From Actinomycetota bacterium (GTDB lineage: Bacteria; Actinomycetota; Acidimicrobiia; Acidimicrobiales; Iamiaceae), in assembly GCA_019639095.1 (NCBI GenBank), contig JAHBSN010000007.1:1-34649 (forward strand): a DNA stretch of 34,649 nucleotides, in the 5' to 3' direction. This document shows positions 30,622-34,649 of this stretch, in pieces. A model generated the notes under the pieces. It was not told where the DNA came from, did no database searches, and saw only the letters and a program-made list of their open reading frames with translations. Made by a program: the position numbers and the translations under genes. How positions within the stretch are numbered: the stretch's first letter is position 1; each line of letters begins with the position of its first letter.

Positions 30622-32952
30622 GGCCCGGCTCGACAGGCTGAGCGCGAAGTCGCCCCGGGCGTCGGTCCACCAGTGCGTGGTGGTGAACCCGGCGGCGGCC
30701 AGCTCGTCCTCCACGCGCTCGCGGCGGAACTTGGCGCTGATCTCGGTGCGGATGCTCTCGCCGGGGGCGAACGACCGGGAGACGCCCAGGCTCGGCACCG
30801 ACACCTGCTGGGACCCGCGCGCCACCAGGTGCATCTCGATCCACTCGTCGACGTCGTTCCATCGGGCCTCGTGGGCCCAGCCGTCGGGGTCGAGCTCGGC
30901 GTCGAGGCGATGGGCCAGCACGGCCAGCACGTTGCGGTTGAACTCGGCGGTCACCCCGGCGTCGTCGTCGTAGGCGGCTACGAGCCGCTCGGGATCCTTG
31001 ACCAGGTCGGTGCCGAGCAGCAGCCAGTCGCCGGGGCGCAGGCTGGCGGCGAGGTCGGCCAGGAAGCGAGCTCGGTGGGCGGGCTCGAAGTTGCCGATGG
31101 TCCCGCCCAGGAGCGCCACGGTGCGGCGACCGCCGGCGGGCAGCGCGTCGAGGTGGTGGTCGAAGTCGCCGATCACGCCGTGCACCGCCAGGCCGGGGTG
31201 GCGCTCGGCGATGGTGTGGGCCGCCCAACGCAGGATCCCCTCGGACACGTCGAAGGGCACGAACCGCTCGAGCTGCCCGGTGGCCTCGAAGGCATCGAGT
31301 AGCAGGCGCGTCTTGTCCGAGGTGCCCGAGCCCAGCTCCACCAGGGTGTCGGCGCCCGACGCCTCGGCGATCGTGGCCGCCTCGCGCTCGAGGATCTCGC
31401 GCTCCCGGCGGGTGGGGTAGTACTCGTCGAGCCGGGTGATCTGGTCGAACAGCTCGCTGCCGCGGTCGTCGTAGAACCACTTGGGCGGGAGGGTGGCGGG
31501 CGTGGCGCCCAGCCCGGTGGCGACGTCGGACCGCAGCGCCCGCTCCAGGTCGGCGGGGTGGAGGTGGACGTCGACCCGGGGCTCGACCACCGGCGGTGCC
31601 GCCGCGCCGGTCAGGTCGATGGTGGTGGACGCAGCGGTCCGGCCCGCGGACCGCGAGGGGCGGGGCGGCTCGAGGTCGTCGGCGAGGCGGACGGTGCTGA
31701 ACGCCCAGCGGGCCGAGGCGGGGAAGAAGTTGCGGTAGGTGGGCCGGGTGTGGCCCGAGGGCGTCACGGGCGCGCCGCCGCGCAGCGTGAGCTGGTTGCA
31801 CATGAACTTGCCGTTGTACTCGCCGATCGCCCCAGCCACGGGCCGGAAGCCCGGATAGGGGGCGTAGGCGCTGGCGGTCCACTCCCAGCCATCGCCCAGG
31901 AGCTGTCGAACGCCGTCGGTCACGGCGGGGTCCGCCGGTCGGGGGTGCAGGGCGCCGGCGCCGAGGTCGTTCGGGGCCTCGCCGGCACCCACCCGGGCGC
32001 ACGCGACCTCCCACTCCGCCTCGGTGGCGAGGCGGGCGCCCGACCAGCGGGCGAAGGCGTCGGCCTCGAAGTAGCTGATGTGGACCACCGGCGTGGCGTC
32101 GAGGACCGGACGGGTGCCGCCCAGGGTGAACACGCTCCAACCGTCGCCATCGCGATCCCAGTAGAGGGGCGCCCGCCAGCCCTGGGCCGACACCGTGTCC
32201 CAGCCCTCCAAGGCGTGCCAGAACTCGTGCCGCTCGTAGCCGCCGTCGGCCATGAAGGCGAGCCACTCGCCCTCGGTGGCCAACCGGTCGGCCAGGCGGA
32301 ACGGGCGCAGGAGGACGTCGTGGGCCGGGCCCTCGTTGTCGAACGCGAACCCGTCGTGGTCGGCGCCCACCCGCTCGATGCCGACGTCGGCCACGTCCAC
32401 CCAACGGAGGGCCTCGGTGGCCGGGCCCGACACGGGTGCGGTGCCCAGGCGGTAGGCGGGGCGCATCGGGTTGCACGAGAACACGTGCTTGATGTCCATG
32501 AGCAGCAGCTCCTGGTGCTGCTGCTCGTGGTGCGCGCCGAGCTCGAGGAGCGGGGCCACCTCGGCCAGGGCATCGTGGTCGAGGGCGGCGATGAGGTCGT
32601 CCAGGGCGCGGTCGACCGCGGCGCGGTACTCGCCCACCTCCTCTGCCGTTGGGCGCGAGATCAGGCCGCGCTCGGCCCGGGGGTGCCGCGGCCCGACGGC
32701 CTCGTAGTACGAGTTGAACAGGTAGTCGTAGGCCGCGTGCACCGGCTGGTAGCCCGCCAGGTGGGGCCCGAGCACGAAGGTCTCGAAGAACCAGGTGGTG
32801 TGGGCGCGGTGCCACTTGGTGGGGCTGACGTCGGGCATCGACTGCACCACCTGGTCCTCGGGCGCCAGCGGCGCGGCGAGCCCCTCGGTGAGCCGGCGGG
32901 TGGCACGGAGGCGCTCGACGACGTCGTTGACCGTGCGCGTCTGGGTGGACAT
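30619..32952 (-). CDS. EgtB-EgtD fusion, ergothioneine biosynthesis
   Basis: One 777-residue frame with two enzymes. Residues 1-425 are EgtB: a DinB-like iron-binding domain with WHRAH (His51) and HHEQQHQE (His142/His146), then a formylglycine-enzyme-like domain with RLATEAEWE, GDGWEWTASAYAPYPGFRP and GEYNGKFMCNQLTLRGG at 377-393. A linker rich in Ala, Pro, Ser and Thr follows (about 426-460). Residues 461-777 are EgtD: PPKWFYDDRGSELFDQIT at 489-506, SAM motif VELGSGTSDKTRLLL at 538-552 and GGTIGNFEP at 616-624. EgtD trimethylates histidine to hercynine; EgtB couples hercynine to a thiol with oxygen. Fungal Egt1 joins the same enzymes in the opposite order. No egtA, egtC or egtE is near. The ATG at 32952 has an AGGGAG ribosome-binding site. 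Confidence 0.93.
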   Translation of the reverse strand: MSTQTRTVNDVVERLRATRRLTEGLAAPLAPEDQVVQSMPDVSPTKWHRAHTTWFFETFVLGPHLAGYQPVHAAYDYLFNSYYEAVGPRHPRAERGLISRPTAEEVGEYRAAVDRALDDLIAALDHDALAEVAPLLELGAHHEQQHQELLLMDIKHVFSCNPMRPAYRLGTAPVSGPATEALRWVDVADVGIERVGADHDGFAFDNEGPAHDVLLRPFRLADRLATEGEWLAFMADGGYERHEFWHALEGWDTVSAQGWRAPLYWDRDGDGWSVFTLGGTRPVLDATPVVHISYFEADAFARWSGARLATEAEWEVACARVGAGEAPNDLGAGALHPRPADPAVTDGVRQLLGDGWEWTASAYAPYPGFRPVAGAIGEYNGKFMCNQLTLRGGAPVTPSGHTRPTYRNFFPASARWAFSTVRLADDLEPPRPSRSAGRTAASTTIDLTGAAAPPVVEPRVDVHLHPADLERALRSDVATGLGATPATLPPKWFYDDRGSELFDQITRLDEYYPTRREREILEREAATIAEASGADTLVELGSGTSDKTRLLLDAFEATGQLERFVPFDVSEGILRWAAHTIAERHPGLAVHGVIGDFDHHLDALPAGGRRTVALLGGTIGNFEPAHRARFLADLAASLRPGDWLLLGTDLVKDPERLVAAYDDDAGVTAEFNRNVLAVLAHRLDAELDPDGWAHEARWNDVDEWIEMHLVARGSQQVSVPSLGVSRSFAPGESIRTEISAKFRRERVEDELAAAGFTTTHWWTDARGDFALSLSSRA

Positions 32953-32991: not shown

Positions 32992-33069
32992 CCCACCCCC
33001 ACCGACACCGAGACGGTCGACCGCCCGGTTCGGCCCGATGTTCACCCCCTCGTAAGGGCAATGACTTAC

Positions 33070-33099
33070 TTGACTCACCCAGCGGGTGAGTAGTACGCT
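33070..33099 (+). promoter_or_regulatory. Transposase promoter with palindrome in its spacer
   Basis: TTGACT (33070-33075) and TACGCT (33094-33099) are 18 nt apart, and the GTG start follows after 7 nt, so the mRNA would be leaderless. ACTCACCCAGCGGGTGAGT (33073-33091), a palindrome with perfect 8-bp arms, overlaps the -35 and fills most of the spacer, as expected of an operator. Confidence 0.6.
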
Positions 33100-33106
33100 C
33101 ACCTAC

Positions 33107-34027
33107 GTGAGCAAGTCGCCCCTCCCCTCCAACCTCATGGAAGCGATCCGCTACTTCAGCGATCCCGACGTGTGCGTCGAGTTCGTGGCGTCGCTCCGCT
33201 GGGAGGACGGCAAGCCTGTCTGCCCCGAGTGCGGCGGCATGGATCACTCGTTCCTGACCACGCGGCGCCTCTGGAAGTGCAAGGCGTGCAAGAAGCAGTT
33301 CTCCGTCAAGGTCGGCACGATCTTCGAGGACTCGCCCCTCGGTCTGGACAAGTGGCTCTGCGCCATCTGGCTCATCGCCAACTCGAAGAACGGCATCTCG
33401 TCGCACGAGCTCGGCCGCTCCATCGGCGTCACCCAGAAGTCCGCTTGGTTCATGCTCCACCGCATCCGCCTCGCCATGCAGACGGGTTCGTTCGACAAGT
33501 TCGACGGCATCGTGGAGGTGGACGAAACCTTCATCGGGGGCCTCGCCCGCAACATGCACAAGAACAAGCGGCCCAAGGGCACCGGGTTCGTCGGCAAGAC
33601 GATCGTGGCCGGTGCGCTCAACCGGGGCGGCGAGGTCACGGCCCGAGTCGTCCCGAACACGAAGACCACCACCCTCACCGGGCACGTGGAGGACGTGGTG
33701 GAGCCTGGGGCGACCGTCTACACCGACGCCCACTCGGGCTACCGCACCCTCGCTCGGGACTACGAGCACGCCACCATCGACCACGCCACCCACTACGTCG
33801 ACGGCCAGGTCCACACCAACGGCATGGAGAACTTCTGGTCCCTGCTGAAGCGTGGCCTCCACGGCACCTACATCTCGGTGGAGGCCTTCCACCTGTTCCG
33901 CTACATCGACGAGCGGGTGTTCACCTTCAACCACCGCGAGGCCACCGACCTCGGCCGGTTCTCCACCGTCGTGGAGATGGCGGCCGGTCGCCGCCTCACC
34001 TGGGACCAGGTCACCGGGAAGGCGTGA
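33107..34027 (+). CDS. IS1595-family transposase
   Basis: A 306-residue transposase. An N-terminal zinc ribbon has CPEC (Cys39/Cys42) and CKAC (Cys58/Cys61), followed by a helix-turn-helix-like ISSHELGRSIGVTQKSAWFMLHR at 97-119. The DDE-type core (ISXO2-like) has EVDETFIGG with Asp139, VYTDAHSGY with Asp207 and HTNGMENFWSLLKRG at 236-250, where Asn238 or Glu241 is the third catalytic residue. The frame is intact. No terminal inverted repeats or target duplication could be fixed; the right end is probably beyond the window. The GTG start is taken from the promoter spacing. Confidence 0.9.
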   Translation: MSKSPLPSNLMEAIRYFSDPDVCVEFVASLRWEDGKPVCPECGGMDHSFLTTRRLWKCKACKKQFSVKVGTIFEDSPLGLDKWLCAIWLIANSKNGISSHELGRSIGVTQKSAWFMLHRIRLAMQTGSFDKFDGIVEVDETFIGGLARNMHKNKRPKGTGFVGKTIVAGALNRGGEVTARVVPNTKTTTLTGHVEDVVEPGATVYTDAHSGYRTLARDYEHATIDHATHYVDGQVHTNGMENFWSLLKRGLHGTYISVEAFHLFRYIDERVFTFNHREATDLGRFSTVVEMAAGRRLTWDQVTGKA

Positions 34028-34341
34028 CAGTGAACACTGAGGCCCCGCCAAGGCTTCTCGGAGCGTTCGGCGCTAGCGTTCGCGCCGTGGAGAAGAAGCG
34101 GAAGATCACGGGGCCTGACGGCACCGAGTACGACGCGACCGAACTCAACTTCCGAACCGAGGGTGAGTACTTCAACGAGTACCTGCTCGATGACGGCACG
34201 GTCCTGCGGTTCAAGGCAGTCGTGACGAAGGTGCAGCGGCTCGACGGGATCTACGACAACGAGGGGATGCCGGTGTACATGGTCCTCTCCAACAACGTCG
34301 TAGTGACGTCGTCCCCGGATGAACTGCGCAAGGGAGGCTGA
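34024..34341 (+). CDS. Small hypothetical protein downstream of the transposase
   Basis: A frame of up to 105 codons whose first GTG overlaps the transposase stop (GTGA). A later GTG at 34087, with TAGCGT 7 nt upstream, gives an 84-residue product (VEKKRKITGPDGTEYDATEL and so on) that fits the conserved-looking part better; I keep the longer frame but favour the second start. The protein is hydrophilic, rich in beta-prone residues (EYLLDDGTVLRFKAVVTKV, YMVLSNNVVV). I do not recognise it. Codon use is less GC-rich than in the rest of the window, in line with recent transfer. It ends 4 bp before the HicB-like gene. Confidence 0.55.
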   Translation: MTVNTEAPPRLLGAFGASVRAVEKKRKITGPDGTEYDATELNFRTEGEYFNEYLLDDGTVLRFKAVVTKVQRLDGIYDNEGMPVYMVLSNNVVVTSSPDELRKGG

Positions 34342-34345
34342 AGCG

Positions 34346-34649
34346 GTGAGCGAAGCGTTAGCTGTCTCGAGGACCGACGTTGAGTACAAGGCAGACCTGT
34401 CCGTCATCAAGGACGTGGCGAAGGACGGACCGACCTTGACGATCGTCTACCAAGTGCCGAGCGAGTCTGGCGATGGTGAGGGGGTCATGGAGCGACTCAT
34501 CCGGCGCTGGGTGGAGAAGGCATCAAGGCACTACCGAACCACCCAAGTCGACCCCGGCGTCTGGGTAGCGGACGTAGTTGGGATCGACGGGGCATGGGCG
34601 GACGGCAAGACCCGTCGAGAAGCCATTGCGAACCTCCCCAGCGTCCTGG
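34346..34649 (+). CDS. HicB-like domain protein, cut by window end
   Basis: From a GTG with GGGAGG about nine bases upstream, 101 codons run off the window. The last 30 residues (VWVADVVGIDGAWADGKTRREAIANLPSVL) have the HicB-antitoxin pattern: a beta strand with Val/Ala, a GxxG-W-A-DGKTRxEA turn, then a helix. The N-terminal 65 residues are unfamiliar (YKADLSVIKDVAKDGPTLTIVYQ). A TTA codon and several GTA/ATT codons, rare in this genome, point to foreign origin. It could be an antitoxin-like passenger of the IS element or the edge of another accessory region; the toxin partner is not seen. Confidence 0.5.
   Translation, partial: MSEALAVSRTDVEYKADLSVIKDVAKDGPTLTIVYQVPSESGDGEGVMERLIRRWVEKASRHYRTTQVDPGVWVADVVGIDGAWADGKTRREAIANLPSVL

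Follow-up and report, generated by a model that had tools for sequence, protein, structure and literature searches.

Half of a predicted IS1595-family transposon at a contig end, with a toxin-antitoxin-like gene pair and a putative companion gene of the transposase

Insertion sequences of the IS1595 family are described with a single transposase gene (PMC8101967, in excerpt), and forms that carry passenger genes, such as tISCpe8 and MTnSag1, are known as well (PMC5704250, in excerpt). Toxin-antitoxin pairs are known as passengers in Tn3-family transposons, which also exchange modules; the Tn3 transposase, however, is unrelated and much larger, and the excerpted text on Tn3 toxin-antitoxin pairs does not mention HicA (PMC7157771). 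The element described here resembles the IS1595 family in its transposase domain and zinc ribbon, its ends beginning with GG, its 8-bp target duplication, and its passenger genes. As in the excerpted family description (PMC8101967), there is one transposase gene, but here a conserved second gene that does not encode a transposase accompanies it. Because of this second gene, we regard the clade to which the element belongs as an IS1595 variant; the element itself further differs from the family in its HicA/HicB-like cargo. It resembles the type II toxin-antitoxin system HicAB in having a HicA domain, the mark of a family of mRNA-cleaving toxins, and, at a score below the cutoff, a HicB-like match in the putative partner. 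In contrast to HicAB, the HicB-like gene comes first and hicA second, both lie inside an IS1595 element with the junction between them unsequenced, and hicA is followed by a third small gene that begins within its stop. We know of no clade-wide small gene of comparable kind in Tn3-family transposons. In our literature search, conducted outside ISfinder and Siguier 2009 and partly on excerpts, we came across neither such a small gene nor a HicAB pair within an IS1595 element.

The window analyzed here is a stretch of 34,649 nucleotides that makes up the whole of contig C443, in a genome of 475 contigs. The end of this contig is, as judged from its sequence, half of a bacterial transposon with a toxin-antitoxin-like gene pair; the element runs off the contig end (Table 1). 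Its transposase is intact, with a GTG start, a further in-frame GTG upstream at 33086, and a terminal TGA. It matches DDE_Tnp_IS1595 (PF12762, 3.3e-35) and, in its N-terminal part, the IS1595 zinc ribbon (PF12760, 4.2e-14) in Pfam, and transpos_IS1595 (NF033547, 5.7e-54) in NCBIfam. Two small ORFs follow. Searches of Pfam, NCBIfam, PADLOC, and PHROGs gave no match for ORF2. ORF3 could start at GTG 34346 or at ATG 34319 and runs to the contig end; a weak PADLOC match to "subtilase" (0.0025) was taken as chance. An earlier note, made from the letters of the window, had described both this intact IS1595-family transposase and the two ORFs behind it. It had also pointed to a lower GC content, which we measured at 64.0% from 33060 onward vs 73.4% in the rest of the window, and to rare TTA codons, a thin claim given one in ORF3 and none in ORF2.

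Table 1. Features of the two halves of the element, in window coordinates or in coordinates of locus L002 on contig C223
Feature	Position	Strand	Remark
Target duplication, 8 bp, CTCGTAAG	33049..33056	.	partner at G000:C223 37949-37956, reading CTTACGAG there
Left terminal inverted repeat, 24 bp	33057..33080	+	identical to right repeat
Promoter-like pair	33070..33099	+	putative transposase promoter; compare the pattern in 57 left ends
IS1595-family DDE transposase with zinc ribbon	33107..34027	+	Pfam/NCBIfam profile matches
ORF2, 84 aa	34087..34341	+	no relatives found in other elements
ORF3, weakly HicB-like, open at contig end	34346..34649	+	sub-threshold UPF0150 match
HicA domain, cut by contig end	L002 2298-2501	-	outside window
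Conserved small gene, 57 aa	L002 2125-2298	-	outside window
ORF, 95 aa	L002 1834-2121	+	outside window
ORF, 105 aa	L002 1545-1862	+	outside window
Right terminal repeat, 24 bp	L002 1503-1526 (G000:C223 from 37957)		outside window

The same note had begun the element at 33060 and left its left end undefined; the terminal repeat begins three bases earlier. The window contains no other copy of this repeat at up to 3 mismatches, and none arose in 100 shuffles. The next best 24-mer past 33000 matches at only 15 of 24 positions; therefore, the window holds no second repeat. A right end inside the window is ruled out, including one between 34027 and 34087, in agreement with the earlier placement of that end outside the stretch. 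Two hexamers read from the sequence could form a promoter for the transposase: TTGACT at 33070-33075, which falls within the repeat, and TACGCT at 33094-33099, a weak -10-like match. Since the GTG start sits close behind this weak -10, the transposase mRNA may be leaderless.

The right end was found on contig C223. Within its own genome, the element has one further match, 29 bp on C223, and this is the only other copy of the repeat that we found. There, in inverted orientation, 24/24 repeat bases and 8/8 duplication bases agree with those on C443. We also examined the flanking genes in G003, a genome of the same genus assembled as a single contig. In G003, osmC (1911185-1911607, 72% identity) and egtB (from about 1911735) are adjacent without the element; the joined flanks align across the site, and G003 reads CTTGCGAC where the genome under study has CTTACGAG. 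We take the G003 junction to be the empty site. This adjacency is found in G003 alone among the 12 genus genomes searched, own included; in G001, the matches to osmC and egtB lie on different contigs. Because C223 carries the same repeat and the same 8 bp, and because the flanks are adjacent in G003 without the element, the two contig ends are, on this comparison of sequences, the halves of a single insertion between osmC and egtB. Alternatively, the C223 end could be a separate insertion of a sister element, in which case its HicA would not be the partner of the HicB-like ORF in the window. C223 and C443 do not overlap, and other elements of the clade carry toxins too, as such a scenario would allow; nevertheless, the shared 8-bp duplication at both ends, the neighboring flanks in G003, and the presence of only these two repeat copies make it very improbable.

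With the halves of one insertion joined, the left end, the transposase, ORF2, the HicB-like ORF3, the gap, hicA, and the 57-aa gene follow one another in one direction; the 95- and 105-aa ORFs come next in the opposite direction, and then the right end. The start of the 57-aa gene sits within the hicA stop (ATGA). We estimate a total length of ~2.7 kb, of which roughly 100 to 150 bp would be missing between the contigs, a figure drawn from the sizes of HicA and TTHA0281. The terminal inverted repeats, the 8-bp duplication, and an empty site in a relative, all of which the earlier note had named as checks, were thus found. They confirm that the element is real and larger than first noted and, together with the transposase, the ORFs, and the HicA domain, support its interpretation as a passenger-carrying IS1595 element. 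The overlapping 105- and 95-aa ORFs point from the right repeat into the element, toward hicA; neither has a convincing match in Pfam, PADLOC, or PHROGs. On the other side of the insertion, a 777-aa ORF (window 30622-32952, minus strand) looks by eye like an EgtB-EgtD fusion of ergothioneine synthesis, and G003 matches this stretch in three separate segments, as though frame changes had split it.

The HicA domain (PF07927) is matched at 2.9e-8 and 34.1 bits, above the Pfam cutoff of 27, and its best match in the PDB is 1whz (E 0.49). The C terminus of ORF3, which is cut by the contig end, matches UPF0150 at 0.0067 and 16.8 bits, below the cutoff of 27.3, and gives a weak PDB match to 2dsy/TTHA0281 (E 0.11). 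We take 1whz to be a HicA-type protein and 2dsy/TTHA0281 a HicB-type one. Once the contigs are joined across the unsequenced junction, hicA and ORF3 are codirectional, and hicB would run into hicA. The HicB-like reading of ORF3, made at the outset for its C terminus, gains weight because the element's other half holds an above-cutoff HicA in the same direction; the ORF3 match itself stays below the cutoff. Such a HicAB-like pair could plausibly act as a stabilizing device for the element. It is not cargo common to the clade: ORF2, ORF3, and HicA have no relatives at E<0.1 among the 893 ORFs of 56 bounded elements, so the recurrence of this ORF pair beside other IS1595 transposases, considered in the earlier note, was not observed. 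L155, an element from the class to which the window belongs, does carry a different HicA/HicB-like pair, in which a further HicA (4.8e-7) lies next to a HicB-like ORF (DUF1902, 7.7e-5; UPF0150, 0.0078, below cutoff); DUF6941 is also present in that element.

To place the element among its relatives, we scanned genome contigs and found 470 related loci, the best 80 of which were analyzed. They come from MAGs and genomes labelled Acidobacteria, Actinomycetota, Chloroflexi, Planctomycetota, and others. With a threshold of 14/20 repeat matches plus an exact 8 bp, 56 of these best 80 of 470 show the repeat at both ends together with an exact 8-bp duplication; no ends were found at this threshold in the other 24, among them L099, which scored 12. 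In control runs, a shifted upstream window passed in 0 of 63 cases (the true window in 46 of those 63), and shuffled flanks passed in 0 of 80. The bounded elements (n = 56) span 1727 to 4405 bp, with a median of 2484.5, and the consensus of their terminal repeats is GGCAATAATATACTTGACTCAC. A TTGACA-like hexamer (at least 5/6) lies within the repeat at 55/57 left ends and 35/57 right ends. Downstream of it, at a spacing of 16 to 18, a -10-like hexamer (at least 4/6) is found at 51/57 left ends vs 15% in shuffles, and at 22/57 right ends vs 10% in shuffles. At the right end, the closest gene points into the element in 43/56, a count made on mechanically picked ORFs, some of them on the wrong strand. 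Overall, the clade appears to share a plan in which a left end with an inward promoter is followed by the transposase, a conserved small protein (mostly 40 to 70 aa), and exchangeable cargo.

Closer to the window, a clade transposase is present in 6 of the 395 genomes of its class, own included, where G141 is counted as L050 again, since its match does not differ from that of the L050 genome in coordinates or score. The small gene is present in three of the other four class loci (L152, L153, and L155) and absent from L154. Duplications CAAATTTG and ACCCGGTG flank the repeats in L152 and L155, respectively; no element ends were found in L153 or L154. In L154 (G217:C85), the clade transposase thus stands without the small gene or recognizable ends, and the next ORF looks HNH endonuclease-like by eye. 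Nine of 60 relatives of the genome under study have IS1595 transposases, at 28 to 51% identity. Among plasmids, 44 records hold relatives, all below 60% identity, which were not judged members of the clade.

Of the six nontransposase proteins of the element, only the 57-aa protein has relatives across the locus set. An HMM profile built from nine seeds, and iterated on the same loci as were counted, found this gene in 77/80 loci and in 54/56 bounded elements; one extra copy lies outside the element in L127. L075 and L089 were missed by the HMM, though small ORFs there look related by eye, and the sequence of L090 stops 2 bases past the transposase match. The median length of the protein is 57 aa. 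We then searched 25 whole genomes with such loci, which gave 49 matches to the small-protein profile and 76 to the transposase profile. A small gene lies within 5 kb of 39/41 transposases of at least 330 bits, that is, those of the clade; 25 of these 41 are the loci by which the genomes were chosen, which leaves at most 16 new ones, 14 of them with the gene. As for the two misses, L145 breaks off at a contig end, and L144 does hold the gene (2.6e-5), along with the repeats and the duplication. The corresponding counts are 0/26 for more distant full-length IS1595 transposases (200 to 330 bits) and 6/9 for transposase fragments below 200 bits. Conversely, 43/49 small genes have a transposase within 5 kb, and six (L138 to L143) have none. 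In L138 and L143 the gene has a terminal-repeat match nearby, so some of these six may be remnants or nonautonomous elements; L142 has a weak match, and none was found at a score of 12 in L139 to L141.

The small gene is, to judge by its codons, real and under purifying selection: dN/dS in 12 pairs was 0.09 to 0.15 in six and 0.35 and 0.51 in two, and was not computable in four, where dS was saturated. Distances between its copies track those between the transposases: Mantel r was 0.468 (n = 72) vs a maximum of 0.161 in 1000 permutations, with L127, L056, and every locus whose transposase could not be read cleanly left out. The predicted structure consists of two helices (residues 23 to 38 and 42 to 56), with a pTM of 0.36 and a pLDDT near 90 from residue 31 on and 57 to 59 over the first 20 residues. 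No family could be assigned. Pfam searches with 60 small proteins returned 14 families at E<=0.1, none convincing; DUF7416, the most frequent, was rejected with only 4 members at 0.036, as was DUF6291, which had the best E value (0.00076) in only 2 members. NCBIfam gave no match, PHROGs a best of 0.063, and PDB folds a best E of 7.4; the best match among PDB sequences, syntaxin-6 at 0.032, was not accepted.

What the small protein does can be approached from what it stays with. It remains and covaries with the transposase while the cargo changes, and we tentatively read it, at somewhat below even odds, as an accessory or regulatory factor of transposition that would serve the transposon itself. 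Its position gives a mixed picture. We considered 77 small genes, counting that of the element itself and omitting L127. The 60 bp upstream contain the end of a same-strand ORF in 55 cases and no such end in 22; this ORF is a full-length transposase in 15/77 and another ORF in 40/77. The small protein could thus serve the cargo instead, as a general regulator or as an antitoxin-like partner of the upstream gene. In those 40 cases the nontransposase ORF has at least 60 aa, often with a 4-bp overlap, as at hicA. Moreover, the small gene is on the strand opposite the nearest transposase in 28/43, which, with its frequent place directly behind a cargo ORF, fits coexpression with the cargo better than with the transposase. 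Yet cargo from different elements is unrelated, whereas the small gene is retained and covaries with the transposase; in 15/77 the gene follows the transposase directly, and HicAB and other pairs already have partners of their own. A cargo role is therefore possible and on the doubtful side, and the mixed position picture is also why the accessory role is held as loosely as it is.

In a third scenario, the small gene became fixed in the ancestor of the clade as a selfish or neutral hitchhiker, with no part in transposition or cargo function. The 6/49 copies without a transposase within 5 kb would fit such a scenario, as would the clade transposase of L154, which does without the gene. Its near-universal retention and the low dN/dS in close pairs make this improbable, and we retain the accessory role as the working interpretation.

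Related elements appear to keep the small gene with the transposase nearly always and to exchange their other genes. For example, the transposases of L092, L115, L118, and L121 are 94 to 96% identical, and L092 and L115 share a cargo type while L118 and L121 carry others. In turn, the 12 transposases with cargo of the DUF3800 cluster are on average 0.597 alike, vs 0.586 over all pairs. To survey the cargo, we assembled 97 ORFs, after adding 7 by hand and removing 12 that we took for wrong-strand ORFs or for the small gene. These match 24 families at 1e-4, most commonly DUF3800 (6 ORFs), and most of the ORFs match nothing. Several of the 24 families are tied to restriction, toxin-antitoxin, or abortive infection functions. 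In comparison, 97 flank ORFs, which are longer than the cargo ORFs (290 vs 239 aa), match 96 families, and the 25 of these 96 that were listed are mostly metabolic or housekeeping. An enrichment of defense genes in the cargo over the flanks is thus suggested, based on those 25 of 96 flank families.

In chosen cargo, Pfam identified AIPR (L054), GmrSD (L059), RhuM (L065), PIN (L098 and L152), PIN_10 beside a just-below-cutoff HTH (L114), HTH_3 (L073), DUF1828 (L123), AAA_15/21 with DUF3226 (L102), DUF4145 (L084), DUF3800 (L085), and an N6/N4 methylase with an Mrr-type part (L122 and L152); the Mrr part of the L083 protein falls just short of the cutoff. In L106, an HTH_3 protein with a sub-threshold MqsA match lies beside a sub-threshold DUF4258, both toxin-antitoxin assignments being below the cutoff. 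Seven of the 20 first-chosen cargo proteins are weak or without a family, and the cargo of L109, L071, L105, L074, and L078 matched nothing in Pfam at 0.01. DUF3800 is predicted to have an RNase H fold (PMC10910872, in excerpt). Two further proteins recur. One, of about 250 to 290 aa with a conserved DKH motif (L075, L078, L083, L091, L107, and L126), gave no Pfam or fold match for the members searched. The other is found in L052, L069, L074, L095, L106, L120, and L125, and its L074 copy matches the phage family phrog_32483 at 2.8e-23. For cargo cluster A5, the predicted fold had a pLDDT of 65.7 and a best Foldseek E of 1.1, and no use was made of it.

Taken together, our explanation is that one IS1595-family transposon, split over two contigs, lies between osmC and egtB with HicA/HicB-like cargo and follows a clade plan that includes the small protein; we give it a probability of about 75%. 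The transposase would act on the 24-bp ends and move the unit, HicA and the HicB-like protein would form a toxin-antitoxin pair favoring cells that keep the element, and the small protein would help or regulate transposition while cargo is swapped around it and the transposase. A bolder proposal, for which we hold out less hope, is that the clade is a two-component transposition system, with the small protein required or controlling, and at the same time a shuttle that trades toxin-antitoxin, restriction, and other defense genes between distant bacteria. If the second protein is obligatory, transposition or its control in this clade would differ from that in the rest of the IS1595 family. With nearly identical transposases and unrelated cargo, the clade would represent a natural experiment in cargo exchange. 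Its cargo, partly from restriction, abortive infection, and toxin-antitoxin families along with much that has no family, may be a place to seek new defense genes.
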